Part shown: positions 25,587-47,530 of the stretch, piece after piece
Numbering within the stretch: position 1 is the first letter of the stretch
Layout of the letters: the number at the start of each line of letters is the position of its first letter
Assembly (NCBI RefSeq): GCF_000016065.1
Contig: NC_009092.1
Span: 3,410,001 to 3,474,000, forward strand
Source of the DNA: Shewanella loihica PV-4
GTDB lineage: Bacteria > Pseudomonadota > Gammaproteobacteria > Enterobacterales > Shewanellaceae
DNA length: 64,000 nucleotides
Direction of reading: 5' to 3'
Position numbers and translations under genes: made by a program
Notes under the pieces: generated by a model
Databases searched by the model: none
Told to the model about the DNA's origin: nothing
The model's input: the letters and a program-made list of their open reading frames with translations, nothing else

Positions 25587-26471
25587 TCAGCCCAGCTGAC
25601 CTATCTGCTGCAGGCTGAAGGCGGTCAGAGGGTCTATCTCCTTGACCAGCTCCTCAATCTTGATGATCGCCTCCAGCGACCCGCTGTCTTTGCGGTAGGA
25701 GAGATAGATGGGACGATTCCAGGGCTCCACCCCTTCTACTAGATAGAGTTGCTTAGATTGCAGGAACGGCTCGACGATAGACAGCGGCAGATAGGCCGCC
25801 CCCGCCTTATCCAGAATAAAATCCAGCGCGATACGCCCGGTGGAGGTACGCAGATAAGGTGGCGGCATGCGATAGTGGCGCTCGGCGTGCTCGGAGGCGA
25901 AACGTGTGCCCCAATCCACATAGACATACTTGTCGCTCAGCGCCTCGCTCTGATCGCAGGGGCGAGTCGAGACCAACACCAGGATAAGGTCGGCCACCTG
26001 CTTACACACCAGCTCCTCCGACTTAAGCGGATCGAAGGCAAAAGCCATGTCTAGGGTTCGCTCCAGCAGGTTGCGGTTGAGCTGCTCGCGACTCAGCGCC
26101 TCGGCCAGAAAGCCATAGCCACCGAAGGCATCGGTCACCTTACTCAAACAGTGCTGCAGGTAGGCATCCCAGATGTTAGGCGTCCCCGCCATGGTCAGCT
26201 GCAACGCCTTATGGTTGGTCAGGGCCAACTCGTTCTTCGCCTGCTCCAGGGTGCTCACCATCACCTCGGCGTAGGGCACCAGACGCTCACCCGAGGTGGT
26301 GAGTTGAATGCTGTTGCGATTACGCACAAACAGCGCGGAGTCGAAGAAGGACTCCAGCTGCTTAATACGGGCGCTCACGGCTGCCTGGGTGATATAGAGA
26401 TTCTCCGCCGCACGGCCGAAATGCCGGGTTCTGGCCACCTCTAAAAAGGTCTTAAATACTTTGACGTCCAT
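25587..26471 (-). CDS. hdfR: LysR-type regulator HdfR
   Basis: 294 residues. MDVKVFKTFLEVARTRHFGRAAENLY with the helix-turn-helix AAVSARIKQLE closely follows E. coli HdfR (RTRHFGRAAESLYLTQ). HdfR represses flhDC in E. coli. The frame runs 29 codons further upstream, but the family start is the ATG at 26471. Its ribosome site (GAGAG) lies inside one arm of a perfect inverted repeat. Divergent from maoP, as in E. coli. Confidence 0.92.
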   Translation of the reverse strand: MDVKVFKTFLEVARTRHFGRAAENLYITQAAVSARIKQLESFFDSALFVRNRNSIQLTTSGERLVPYAEVMVSTLEQAKNELALTNHKALQLTMAGTPNIWDAYLQHCLSKVTDAFGGYGFLAEALSREQLNRNLLERTLDMAFAFDPLKSEELVCKQVADLILVLVSTRPCDQSEALSDKYVYVDWGTRFASEHAERHYRMPPPYLRTSTGRIALDFILDKAGAAYLPLSIVEPFLQSKQLYLVEGVEPWNRPIYLSYRKDSGSLEAIIKIEELVKEIDPLTAFSLQQIGQLG

Positions 26472-26472
26472 T

Positions 26473-26505
26473 TTATTCTCTCGGTCAATTTCACCGAGAG
26501 AATAA
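26473..26505. promoter_or_regulatory. Perfect 13-bp inverted repeat covering the hdfR ribosome site
   Basis: TTATTCTCTCGGT (26473-26485) and ACCGAGAGAATAA (26493-26505) pair exactly around a 7-nt spacer, 1 nt from the hdfR start codon. In hdfR mRNA the GAGAG ribosome site lies in the 3' arm and would be closed. As DNA it is an ideal dimer-binding operator. See findings. Confidence 0.7.
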
Positions 26506-26623
26506 CAACTAATCCTAATGGTGACGATAAAAAAGTTTTGTTTCTCTTTTAACGACAAAAATCATAATTTCGCGATCGAAAAACCCTGTAGTTACAGCGT
26601 TGCTATCACAGTGAGAGGTTGTT

Positions 26624-26983
26624 ATGTCAGAAGATTCATTTCGTTTTGGTCAAAAGCGTTTTTTTGATGACAAAAACTTTCCCCGCGGCTTCAGTAAGTC
26701 CGGAGAGTTCACCTTGTCTGAAGCTGAATTGTTGAGCCTATATGGCGACACTATGCAGGCCTTTGAAGCAGGCGATCTCGAGCCTGAAACTGCAGAGGAA
26801 AAACACTTTGTTAAGGTACTAAAACACCCCAACAAGGCTAATACCAAGCTTGAGCATGTATGGTTGAAATACACTAAGCTTACCCGCGAACCAAAAAAGT
26901 TCCACACCCTAAACAGCACGACTAATAAGCGTGTTGAACAGTATGAATATGTGGAATCTCCCCCAGAAGATGAGGTTGCTTAA
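26624..26983 (+). CDS. maoP: Macrodomain Ori organisation protein MaoP (DUF413)
   Basis: 119 residues, DUF413 (formerly YifE). FDDKNFPRGFSKSGEFTLSEAELL is the family signature. In E. coli MaoP, with a nearby site maoS, is needed to organise the Ori macrodomain. It faces hdfR across 152 bp, the same order as in E. coli. GAGAGG lies 5 nt before the ATG. The next gene starts 3 nt after its stop. Confidence 0.92.
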   Translation: MSEDSFRFGQKRFFDDKNFPRGFSKSGEFTLSEAELLSLYGDTMQAFEAGDLEPETAEEKHFVKVLKHPNKANTKLEHVWLKYTKLTREPKKFHTLNSTTNKRVEQYEYVESPPEDEVA

Positions 26984-26986
26984 AGA

Positions 26987-28021
26987 ATGCACATCTGTTT
27001 TTTGATGTACCCGTGGGAGCGTATCGATCCTGAAACCGATACCACCCTGAGATTAGTTCATGAGTGCGCGCAGCGTGGTCATACCGTTGCCATCACCACG
27101 ACCAGTGGCCTGACCATTCGTGACAGTAGCGTCTACGGGTTTTGTCAAATCATCAAGAAAGGGATGAAGATATCGGACAACATTCCCCGCTTTTACCGCT
27201 CCGCCGAATTTCATAAGGCGCGCCTGCCCATGGCCGGCTTCGACTGCATCTTTATGCGCGCCAATCCGCCGCTGGATAACCTGGCGCTTAACTTCCTGGA
27301 TTCGGTAAAGGGCGACACCCTGATCATCAACGATCTCGAAGGGTTAAGAGTCGCTAACAACAAACTCTACACCGCCAGCATGAGCGGTGCGGCGAGCCAA
27401 TATATTCCTGCCACCCACGTGTCGAAGAACCGCGACTACCTGCAACGTGTGCTGGAAGAGAGCGAAAGCGATAAGATGATCCTCAAGCCACTCAACGGCT
27501 TCGGCGGTCATGGCGTTATCGTAATCGAAAAGAGCGCCCGCCAAAACTTCAGCTCGCTGCTGGACTTCTATATCGGCACCGACGAGCAGAGCAACTATGT
27601 GATCCTGCAAGATTACATCGAAGGCGCCGAGGAAGGCGACAAGCGCATCCTGATGCTCAACGGCGAGCCTATTGGCGCCATGCGCCGCGTACCCGCCTCT
27701 GGCGAGTTCAGATCTAACGTCCATGCCGGCGGCAGCGTGGTCAGACACACAATTACACGTGAAGAGCGCGAGCTGTGCGCCGCCATCGGCCCTAAGCTGG
27801 TGCGCGACGGCCTCTACTTCACAGGCCTGGATGTGATCGGCAACAAGCTGGTCGAGGTTAACGTCCTCAGCCCAGGCGGCATCACGCGTATCAACAAGCT
27901 TAACCGCGTCCGCCTGCAGAAGCAGGTGATCGATTTCGCCGAAAACATCATCAACTCCAAAGAGCTATTGGTGCAACGTAAGAGTGCATATCGTCAAGCG
28001 GTAGAAAATGCAAATCTATAG
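26987..28021 (+). CDS. ATP-grasp ligase, glutathione-synthetase-like
   Basis: 344 residues. ATP-grasp signature K167-PLNGFGGHGV, then VILQDYIEG and the metal-binding DVIGNKLVEVNVLSPGG (N292), all close to GshB. These enzymes form an amide bond through an acyl-phosphate. The usual gshB neighbours (gshA, rsmE, yqgE) are absent, so glutathione synthesis is not assured; it may ligate another amino acid or peptide. Overlaps the next gene by 14 nt and follows maoP by 3 nt, so it is the middle gene of a three-gene operon. Confidence 0.88.
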   Translation: MHICFLMYPWERIDPETDTTLRLVHECAQRGHTVAITTTSGLTIRDSSVYGFCQIIKKGMKISDNIPRFYRSAEFHKARLPMAGFDCIFMRANPPLDNLALNFLDSVKGDTLIINDLEGLRVANNKLYTASMSGAASQYIPATHVSKNRDYLQRVLEESESDKMILKPLNGFGGHGVIVIEKSARQNFSSLLDFYIGTDEQSNYVILQDYIEGAEEGDKRILMLNGEPIGAMRRVPASGEFRSNVHAGGSVVRHTITREERELCAAIGPKLVRDGLYFTGLDVIGNKLVEVNVLSPGGITRINKLNRVRLQKQVIDFAENIINSKELLVQRKSAYRQAVENANL

Positions 28022-29999
28022 TCTCGACCAGATGCTCTCCCTGATTAAACGCGGGGAGACATTCTCAGGCCAACTGGCCTCCTCCGGCTGTGTGATAACC
28101 ATCCAAGAGTATCTGCCCGTAGTGTGCACCGCGATTCACGCGGGGCACAACCTGCGCCCTGAGCTGATCAAATTATGTCAGCTGAGCGCAGAGGAGCGTT
28201 ACTTCGAGGAAGATCCCTTCACCGACGAGGTGATCGCCTCCCAGCCTATTACCCTGGCCGGCAGCGACTCGCGCTTCGAGTACGATCTCAATCGCCCTAA
28301 GAGCTTGAGTACCTACTACAAGTCCGCCTGGATGAAGCAGGTGTGGCGCAAGCCGCTAAGTGCCAAGCAGCGCGCCATCAGCCATGCCAAACACCAGGAT
28401 TTCTATCGACTCTACGAGGCGCTGATCGCCAAGTTGGAGAGCATGTTCGGCATGGTGATCGTGTTCGACCTGCACTCCTACAACTACAAGCGTATCGAGA
28501 AGGCGACCCCCGTGTTTAACATAGGCACCTCGCAGATCGATATGGAGCGCTGGGGCAGCGTGGTCCACAAGTTCCAGCGTGAACTCAAGACCATCACCCT
28601 GCCCAACGTAGAGGTGGACGCCGAGCTGGACGTGGCCTTCGAGGGCCGCGGCTACCTGATCGCCCACACCAACGCCCGCTTCGACCGCACCTTAGTGCTG
28701 CCGACGGAGATCAAGAAGGTTTTTATGGATGAGTTGACCGGCGAGGTCTACCCCATAGTGCTGGACGATCTCAAGCTGGGACTTAAGAACGCCTTTAGCG
28801 CCACCAGCGCCTACTTCCAGCGCAAGCTCAATCGCCAGAGCAAGACCCGTAGCGCCGACATGCTCAGCAGCGCCATCGAGCCCGAGGTGCTGGAGATAGA
28901 CGCCGCCCTGTTCCGCCTGGCACAGAAGGTCGACACGCTGAAGTATGTCAACCCGACCAACCTGGCGGCCGAGCGTCGACGCTTCATGAAGGCGCCGAGT
29001 CGTTTCAAGCCAAATTTTGCCTATCGTCAGCTGCCTATCGATGCCAACGAGTTCAAGTATCGTCTCTATCGTCTGCCCATAGACAATATTGCCGATCCCG
29101 CGCTTAAGCAGCTCTACAAGGATATCGTTAACAAGCTGGGCGAACAGATAGATCTCCTGACCAGCGTCGGTCAGGAAGGCTTCGTCTACAACTCGCTGCG
29201 TTATCATGGCCGCCCGGATAAGAGTGCCATCGCCAACGCCAAGTTCCTGCTGTACGCCAAGGAGATCCCCGAAGAGAGAGGGGAAAGCCTGGATGCCCAT
29301 CAGGTGTGCGAGATGATGAAGCAGAGCGCCGAGCAGTGGCAGATGCGCTGTAAGATTGGCCTCAGCGGCGCCATCGTTGCCCGCGCCATGGTCTGCTCCA
29401 ATCCGGCGCAGCTGGCGATCAGCACCCATGCCCAGTTCCACGAGAGTGAGGTGCAGCGGCTGATCCAACATGAGCTTGGGGTACACATGGCCACCACGCT
29501 CAACGCCAAGCAGCAGTCGCTTAAGGTGTTGCGTCTGGGTCTACCCGGCTCGACCTATACCCAGGAAGGTTTGGCGATTCTGGCGGAGCTTAAGGCGGGC
29601 TTCATGGCCCACTCACGCCTCAACACCCTGGCGGCGCGCGTGCTGGCGGTAGACTCAATGCTCAAGGAGCAGGACTTCTATCTCACCTACAGCTATCTCA
29701 TCGATGAGCTGGAGATGGACAAGGATGATGCCTTCATGACCACGGCCCGCGTCTATCGCGGCGGCGGCTTCACTAAGGATCACCTCTACCTGAGCGGCTT
29801 CCTGGATATGTTACACCTGTCTAAGACCCGCAGCCTGGACAACCTACTCGTGGGTAAGACCAGCGTGCAATACCTGGATCTACTCGACGAGCTGGTGCAG
29901 CGCGACTGGCTGGTGCCGCCTAAGTACAACGTCATCCCGACCAGTAACTTAGAAGAGAGCCCTAGCCTCAACTACCTGATCGAGAGCCTGCGCAGCTAA
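28008..29999 (+). CDS. N-formylglutamate amidohydrolase-like / DUF1704 (QEGLA) zinc peptidase fusion
   Basis: 663 residues, two domains. Residues 1 to about 260 resemble N-formylglutamate amidohydrolase (AIHAGHNLRPEL, SRFEYDLNR, MVIVFDLHSYNYKR). The C-terminal part, about 300-663, is DUF1704, annotated in TIGR02421 as flavohaemoglobin expression-modulating QEGLA protein. It has a gluzincin-like H488-E-L-G-V-H493 and E520 in TQEGLAIL, which fit a zinc site. Human MATCAP, a DUF1704 protein, removes C-terminal Tyr from tubulin. Both halves thus look like hydrolases of amide bonds. The substrate is unknown. Last gene of the maoP operon. Confidence 0.85.
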   Translation: MQIYSLDQMLSLIKRGETFSGQLASSGCVITIQEYLPVVCTAIHAGHNLRPELIKLCQLSAEERYFEEDPFTDEVIASQPITLAGSDSRFEYDLNRPKSLSTYYKSAWMKQVWRKPLSAKQRAISHAKHQDFYRLYEALIAKLESMFGMVIVFDLHSYNYKRIEKATPVFNIGTSQIDMERWGSVVHKFQRELKTITLPNVEVDAELDVAFEGRGYLIAHTNARFDRTLVLPTEIKKVFMDELTGEVYPIVLDDLKLGLKNAFSATSAYFQRKLNRQSKTRSADMLSSAIEPEVLEIDAALFRLAQKVDTLKYVNPTNLAAERRRFMKAPSRFKPNFAYRQLPIDANEFKYRLYRLPIDNIADPALKQLYKDIVNKLGEQIDLLTSVGQEGFVYNSLRYHGRPDKSAIANAKFLLYAKEIPEERGESLDAHQVCEMMKQSAEQWQMRCKIGLSGAIVARAMVCSNPAQLAISTHAQFHESEVQRLIQHELGVHMATTLNAKQQSLKVLRLGLPGSTYTQEGLAILAELKAGFMAHSRLNTLAARVLAVDSMLKEQDFYLTYSYLIDELEMDKDDAFMTTARVYRGGGFTKDHLYLSGFLDMLHLSKTRSLDNLLVGKTSVQYLDLLDELVQRDWLVPPKYNVIPTSNLEESPSLNYLIESLRS

Positions 30000-46503: not shown

Positions 46504-46588
<85 letters not shown>

Positions 46589-46642
46589 ATCGCTTTACAT
46601 CTGATTCGATGGCTTAGTTTAACATCTTAAGCTAGATAAAAA

Positions 46643-46717
46643 TGGCTGGGGTACTAGGATTCGAACCTAGGAATGCCGAGATCAAAACCCGGTGCCTTAC
46701 CGCTTGGCGATACCCCA
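46643..46717 (-). tRNA. tRNA-Gln (TTG)
   Basis: 75 nt. Anticodon loop TTTTGAT; acceptor TGGGGTA pairs with TACCCCA; GCCA end encoded. Confidence 0.95.
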
Positions 46718-46762
46718 ACAAGCTCGGCTTAGATTACAGGATACACCTATAACCTCAAATAA

Positions 46763-46847
<85 letters not shown>

Positions 46848-46979
46848 TTAGCATCTAGTTTTCTATCTTGATGAAGATTCTAGTCATATGTCTGAGCCGA
46901 GGCTCAACTAACTAGCAGACCTCAAGTTTTACATCTTGAGCAGATGGCGCCGACAACGGCGGATTTACCTGAAATAAGA

Positions 46980-47056
46980 TGGTAGCTATGGCGGGACTTG
47001 AACCTGCGACCCCAGCATTATGAGTGCTGTGCTCTAACCAGCTGAGCTACATAGCC
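46980..47056 (-). tRNA. tRNA-Met (CAT), elongator
   Basis: 77 nt. GGCTATGTAGCTCAGCTGG start and the CTCATAA anticodon loop match elongator tRNA-Met (metT type), not initiator or the Ile-CAT tRNA. CCA encoded. Confidence 0.93.
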
Positions 47057-47076
47057 ACATTTATCTTACTGATAAA

Positions 47077-47151
47077 TGGCTGGGGTACTAGGATTCGAAC
47101 CTAGGAATGCCGAGATCAAAACCCGGTGCCTTACCGCTTGGCGATACCCCA
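47077..47151 (-). tRNA. tRNA-Gln (TTG)
   Basis: 75 nt, same sequence as the other two Gln genes of the array; 20 nt from the tRNA-Met downstream. Confidence 0.95.
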
Positions 47152-47176
47152 AGAATCAAATTAAGCAAGAGGAAAA

Positions 47177-47251
47177 TGGCTGGGGTACTAGGATTCGAAC
47201 CTAGGAATGCCGAGATCAAAACCCGGTGCCTTACCGCTTGGCGATACCCCA
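47177..47251 (-). tRNA. tRNA-Gln (TTG)
   Basis: 75 nt, adjacent tandem copy of the preceding Gln gene with a 25-nt spacer. Confidence 0.95.
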
Positions 47252-47299
47252 ATTTTCTTGCTTAAGACTAAAGGTAGACAACCTCTAGTCAAAAATAAA

Positions 47300-47384
<85 letters not shown>

Positions 47385-47453
47385 ACTGCTTCTAGTTTTA
47401 CATCTTGAACAGATGGTGGCGTCTGCCACTATCAATTTTACATCTTGAAAGGA

Positions 47454-47530
47454 TGGTAGCTATGGCGGGACTTGAACCTGCGACCCCAGCATTATGAGTG
47501 CTGTGCTCTAACCAGCTGAGCTACATAGCC
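47454..47530 (-). tRNA. tRNA-Met (CAT), elongator
   Basis: 77 nt, identical to the copy at 46980-47056; first gene of the array, about 40 nt after the promoter. Confidence 0.93.

Follow-up and report, generated by a model that had tools for sequence, protein, structure and literature searches.

A GshB-like ligase and an amidohydrolase-MATCAP fusion beside hdfR and maoP in Shewanella loihica: a candidate amide-bond module

What do a GshB-like ATP-grasp ligase and a fusion of an N-formylglutamate amidohydrolase-like (FGase) domain with a MATCAP-type peptidase do together downstream of maoP? The question is raised by the window analyzed here, a 64,000-nucleotide stretch (bases 3410001-3474000) of the Shewanella loihica PV-4 genome (one contig, 4.60 Mb). 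The genes almost certainly form a real functional module, and an even chance is given to the reading that it is a cytoplasmic, HdfR-associated amide-bond module, with ligase and FGase as a make/break pair and MATCAP as a trimmer. The relevant features, in window positions, are:

25587..26471, minus strand: HdfR-like LysR regulator (start 26471 from alignment with relatives; the longer start of the open reading frame tool is 26558)
26473..26505, no strand: 13-bp inverted repeat, predicted to fold as an RNA hairpin, at the ribosome-binding site of hdfR
26521..26546, plus strand: 26-bp shared intergenic element GTGACGATAAAAAAGTTTTGTTTCTC, candidate HdfR operator
26624..26983, plus strand: DUF413/MaoP (PF04219 119.5 bits, cut-off 25)
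26987..28021, plus strand: GshB-like ATP-grasp ligase, NF009110 subfamily (485.4 bits, cut-off 408)
28008..29999, plus strand: FGase-MATCAP fusion, 663 residues (Pfam profiles and structure model)
28080..28832, plus strand: FGase half, residues 25-275
28938..29996, plus strand: MATCAP half, residues 311-663
29469..29486, plus strand: HELGVH metal motif, residues 488-493 (candidate third ligand E520)

A preliminary description of this DNA had reported maoP, ligase and fusion as one tight operon, and its coordinates, the 3-nt gap between DUF413 and ligase, the 14-nt overlap between ligase and fusion, and both HELGVH and E520 were recovered exactly from the open frames and Pfam. All three genes lie on the plus strand, and their spacing is the basis on which a single operon is predicted; consensus promoters numbered zero in the stretch against 2.1 expected from shuffles, and terminator-like signals five against 3.7.

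The strong co-occurrence of ligase and fusion supports a functional association. Of 185 genomes, nine have a ligase scoring at least 355 bits against NF009110, well separated from the next-best score of 244 bits. These nine are exactly the genomes with a long-form MATCAP, the sole exception being G105, which has no ligase (Fisher 1.7e-14, kinship ignored). The same trio, ordered and fused in different ways, is found in Gammaproteobacteria, Alphaproteobacteria and Planctomycetota. That independent housekeeping genes merely stay together by neighbourhood inertia is therefore highly improbable: most sampled loci come from one order, so that descent alone would preserve much, but it accounts neither for the rearranged trios nor for the impaired FGase site of loci that lack the ligase.

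In the first 35 fusions, FGase H156 was kept in 29/29 loci with a ligase and in 1/6 without. The set was then brought to 63 loci by adding later rows and removing 21 loci as same-genome repeats or near-identical, some near-copies remaining. In it the complete FGase site (H44, E68, R89, D93, N95, R96 and H156) is intact in 53/53 loci with a ligase and 0/10 without (H156 alone: 53/53 versus 1/10), while the MATCAP tetrad is intact in 63/63, ligase present or absent. H156 was lost in all four later ligase-less loci (L154, L158, L159, L226). No such ligase is found elsewhere in the genomes of G185, G193, G251 and G105; G198 and G231 retain one at a second locus. We regard coupling of ligase and FGase as likely. 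The preliminary description had paired the ligase with the peptidase as writer and eraser, an idea that is supported in part: the co-occurrence behind it is strong and none of the outcomes named there as fatal to it turned up, yet these are not the best-coupled pair, because without the ligase it is the FGase site that is damaged and the MATCAP site that stays intact. An exclusive ligase-MATCAP pair is weakened for the same reason.

As proposed, a GshB-type ligase, with its ATP-binding and core residues conserved and its substrate loop changed, would form an amide between the carboxylate of a small glutamyl compound or peptide and an amine or amino acid, its substrates being other than gamma-Glu-Cys and Gly. 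The FGase-type metal amidohydrolase would cleave the same kind of bond, so that the two would constitute an inducible make/break pair. The MATCAP-fold metallocarboxypeptidase may shorten the product, or a more widespread peptide whose formation does not need the ligase, by one residue at the C-terminus. A small molecule is slightly favoured over a protein as substrate. Glutathionylspermidine synthetase/amidase likewise couples ATP-grasp synthesis to hydrolysis of one amide; its hydrolase fold is different and the likeness is one of logic only. Alternatively, the hydrolases could degrade foreign N-acyl or glutamyl peptides, the ligase reconjugating a breakdown product. Both FGase and MATCAP being hydrolases, and FGase homologues standing alone in Desulfobacterota, would suit such scavenging or detoxification, but no transporter recurs and the ligase-FGase coupling would be left unexplained, making this account improbable. 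The Desulfobacterota homologues (L040:3198-4982, L042:6001-9717) lie near genes that, judged by eye from a motif, resemble sirtuins.

The two halves of the fusion are as the preliminary description had assigned them. Pfam assigns residues 37-224 to PF05013 (61.4 bits against a cut-off of 28.9) and residues 325-650 to PF08014 (MATCAP, called DUF1704 in that description; 313 bits, cut-off 27). The structure model (mean pLDDT 92.4, pTM 0.89) matches both the MATCAP fold, with which the description had proposed a comparison, and the FGase fold. In human KIAA0895L (7z5g), HEIGTH and TEEGLA are the aligned counterparts of HELGVH and of TQEGLA with its E520, though sequence alone gives a weak match to that protein (E 0.012); an HExxxH with its third ligand in an EEG-type motif has also been described for TMCP1. 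HExxxH and xEGxA are in register in 34/34 type A fusions, 14/14 type B, 32/32 type C and 5/5 type D proteins over 350 residues, and are thus not a chance motif. Unlike human MATCAP1/KIAA0895L and MATCAP2 (TMCP1/2), with which it shares 22% identity, the window protein, known from sequence and model, is bacterial, FGase-fused and without tubulin, and its neighbouring ligase is of GshB and not TTL type. The FGase half shares the N-formylglutamate amidohydrolase fold (PF05013; 2q7s, 2odf), a phage poly-gamma-glutamate hydrolase (3a9l) being more distant. It scores just 13.4 bits with TIGR02017, the model for the N-formylglutamate deformylase HutG (cut-off 278.75).

Is the ligase simply an additional glutathione synthetase, possibly a conditional one, or a homoglutathione-type thiol synthase accompanied by two thiol-peptide hydrolases? 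Its nearest relatives are GshB proteins (PF02955 194.8 bits, PF02951 82.9 bits), the Photobacterium annotation is GshB, and in an alignment with 20 canonical GshB sequences 30 positions are common to all three groups at a level of at least 90%; the ATP-grasp core of GshB (1gsa) is shared. It nevertheless belongs to a separate subfamily, NF009110, and reaches 251.2 bits with TIGR01380 (GshB), under the cut-off of 299.05, where canonical genes score 401-467. In the substrate loop, the canonical invariant or near-invariant E124, T288, C/G289 and E292 are replaced by N125, G297, G298 and R301 or S. The separate gshB that the preliminary description asked for is present in the window's genome (TIGR01380 458 bits), which rules out the module ligase as sole GshB; a second GshB-range gene occurs in 12/12 genomes, canonical in 5/5 of those examined, and no gshA-like gene was seen to recur alongside the module. 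Sinorhizobium meliloti 2011 carries FGase, MATCAP and ligase genes on pSymB, and according to PMC7063052 disruption of its gshB (SMc00419) abolished glutathione by high-performance liquid chromatography, gamma-glutamylcysteine being said to accumulate. Since this mutant lacks glutathione despite the module, glutathione synthesis by the module is disfavoured, if the module is expressed. A second glutathione synthetase or homoglutathione-type synthase is, on balance, distinctly unlikely.

The linkage to maoP, left unexplained in the preliminary description, proved to be a real recurring neighbourhood, which includes the divergent HdfR-like LysR gene that had been overlooked. In 9 of the 12 module genomes that also have DUF413 (18 tested), the DUF413 gene immediately precedes the ligase or fusion. 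MaoP often heads the cluster and has a charged tail, which is not conserved among linked copies. As DUF413 is missing from 6/18 genomes that carry the complete module, MaoP cannot be a general substrate; we infer a frequent but dispensable passenger or effector. At one locus (L199:4562-8528) the ligase-fusion pair sits between two DUF413 genes.

For the LysR protein the best NCBIfam match is HdfR (NF002946, 191.9 bits), 105 bits ahead of the next family (86.6) and below the equivalog cut-off of 240. The window gene stands out from the 32 and 33 LysR hits obtained in its genome with two LysR proteins that lie beside distant module copies, one of them at a type B locus (188.8 versus 56 bits and 175.7 versus 49.3). 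A LysR protein of at least 175 bits to that of the window adjoins the maoP-linked Shewanella loci, the loci of 3/4 f169, 3/4 f2, 1/1 f241 and 2/2 f226 genomes and of one f236 genome (the second being cut by a contig end), L036, and type B L111, L112, L114 and L115; flanks in this survey were short for Shewanella loci away from maoP. Scored by leave-one-out, the 26-bp element outdid 200/200 mononucleotide shuffles in 16 of 20 regions; nine of the 16 trained the matrix and seven, E. coli hdfR-maoP among them, did not. The neighbouring hairpin folds at -20.2 kcal/mol in the window and at -18.0 to -9.4 in five other Shewanella sequences, L077 folding differently. HdfR probably controls the module, presumably sensing a pathway metabolite.

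In Escherichia coli, too, the HdfR and DUF413 genes diverge and a related 26-bp element is present, but the species, used as a control, lacks MATCAP and the NF009110 ligase; yifB follows maoP and the pair stands alone. HdfR is a direct inducer of gltBD there. A chromosome-organizing activity of MaoP is described in PMC5023128, and near-identical effects of hdfR and maoP deletions on an RpoS-dependent promoter in PMC11188689.

Several observations weigh against the make/break reading or its HdfR component. Linkage is not strict, as two Ensifer plasmids inspected carry the ligase (450.7 bits in L222) but neither FGase nor MATCAP in the 6-7 kb fetched on each side. The Ensifer adhaerens ligase (L222:7001-8047) sits among small stress-type genes (CsbD, ferritin-like, PRC-barrel). 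Type B MATCAP L113 is without ligase or FGase, and L115 without FGase; the type B N-terminal part matches free FGase weakly in hidden Markov model comparison (hhalign probability 9.3%). The seven FGase residues were selected after the first 35 rows had been viewed, and the tree requires about four changes of ligase state, giving three well-supported independent pairs (four with weak branches), too few for the co-decay to be significant (sign test p 0.25 or more). The ligase exceeds the cut-off of NF003573 "glutathione synthase" (283.2 bits, cut-off 272), which two type B-like ligases scanned miss (208.1 and 213.7 bits), and the S. meliloti module may simply have been silent under the conditions used. 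HdfR-like LysR genes were not found around Zooshikella, Fangia, L066, L067, L041 and type B L068-L074 (a 25-bit LysR near L070 aside), nor the 26-bp element in L206, L111, L114 and L115, the last three being all the type B regions tried.

Types C and D are MATCAP homologues with neither ligase nor FGase, and type D nests within type A in the tree. Of 77 Shewanella genomes, type A is present in 22, four of which also have the MATCAP-only type D; 32 have solely type C-like genes, assigned in most cases by score and frame length only, and one has fragments. Types A and C never occur together, an exclusion that kinship could explain. Two of 21 class-sample type C loci (L051:7200-9601, L052:5058-8824) have the MATCAP gene beside two genes of ribosomal S6 glutamylation. 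One is rimK (S6--L-glutamate ligase), at 441 and 438 bits against a cut-off of 331; the other is rimB-like, its 121 and 105 bits falling short of the cut-off of 200. No partner was common to more than three of the 21 loci among neighbours within 5.5 kb (blastp clusters, those also holding type A/B genes set aside).

The rim-linked pair keeps a protein tail in play as substrate, in a cycle in which an amino acid is put on the C-terminus or a side chain of a protein by the ligase and taken off again by MATCAP, FGase or both. MATCAP relatives cut tubulin tails and deglutamylate, as stated in PMC10499314, and the charged tail of the often cluster-leading MaoP would fit. Persistence of the MATCAP site without a ligase, the absence of MaoP from 6/18 genomes, its unconserved tail and the lack of a recurrent adjacent dedicated target in types A and B nonetheless make this cycle unlikely. 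The link to tubulin-like C-terminal tyrosine drawn in the preliminary description reduces to family resemblance, the ligase matching GshB and RimK, with no TTL among the seven Pfam families reported at E 0.1 or better.

A wider extension of the make/break reading is offered tentatively: HdfR, MaoP, ligase, FGase and MATCAP may be an ancient stress-responsive circuit on a glutamyl metabolite or glutamylated tail, which the ligase would write, FGase unwrite and MATCAP trim, HdfR reading the product. E. coli hdfR-maoP would then be a remnant, and this bacterial family would have given rise to the tubulin-trimming MATCAPs of animals, a glutamyl-processing ancestry toward which the lone MATCAPs beside rimK-rimB point.

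The levels of Photobacterium damselae RS17020 ("GshB") and RS17025 (QEGLA) at 1% NaCl are 38.4- and 27.5-fold those at 3% (PMC10308900). Their tags are consecutive and two other Photobacterium second replicons carry LysR, DUF413, ligase and fusion, so these genes are taken to be this cassette. A likely misannotation of a "GshB" gene among the most salt-regulated of that species would thereby be corrected. The cassette also gives MATCAP-type peptidases a concrete bacterial setting and the poorly understood E. coli hdfR-maoP pair a testable biochemical context; should the proposal hold, simple knock-outs combined with metabolomics could reveal a new reversible amide modification.

In the open-licence literature searched, no print account of the cassette and no origin for the name "flavohemoglobin expression-modulating" were found, and PMC2912261 and PMC10315480 mention none of the searched terms. 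A 2009 survey of ATP-grasp peptide ligase/peptidase gene neighbourhoods, reportedly by Iyer, Aravind and colleagues, may already list the trio.

The window's genome has a single PF08014 gene and a single DUF413 gene, and its fusion and the one in Shewanella aquimarina share 97% identity. Elsewhere, tandem module ligases occur in two copies, one more diverged (L068:1835-3980), and L103 and L108 hold decayed module remnants (MATCAP fragments; a ligase remnant with stops in G205). Fusion places without a locus (G568:C35, G591:C1:1369277, G575, G590) were left out. An Rfam scan of the window at the gathering threshold returned nothing besides tRNAs; eight tRNA genes (Leu, Gln, Met repeats) are clustered at 46504-47530 on the minus strand.
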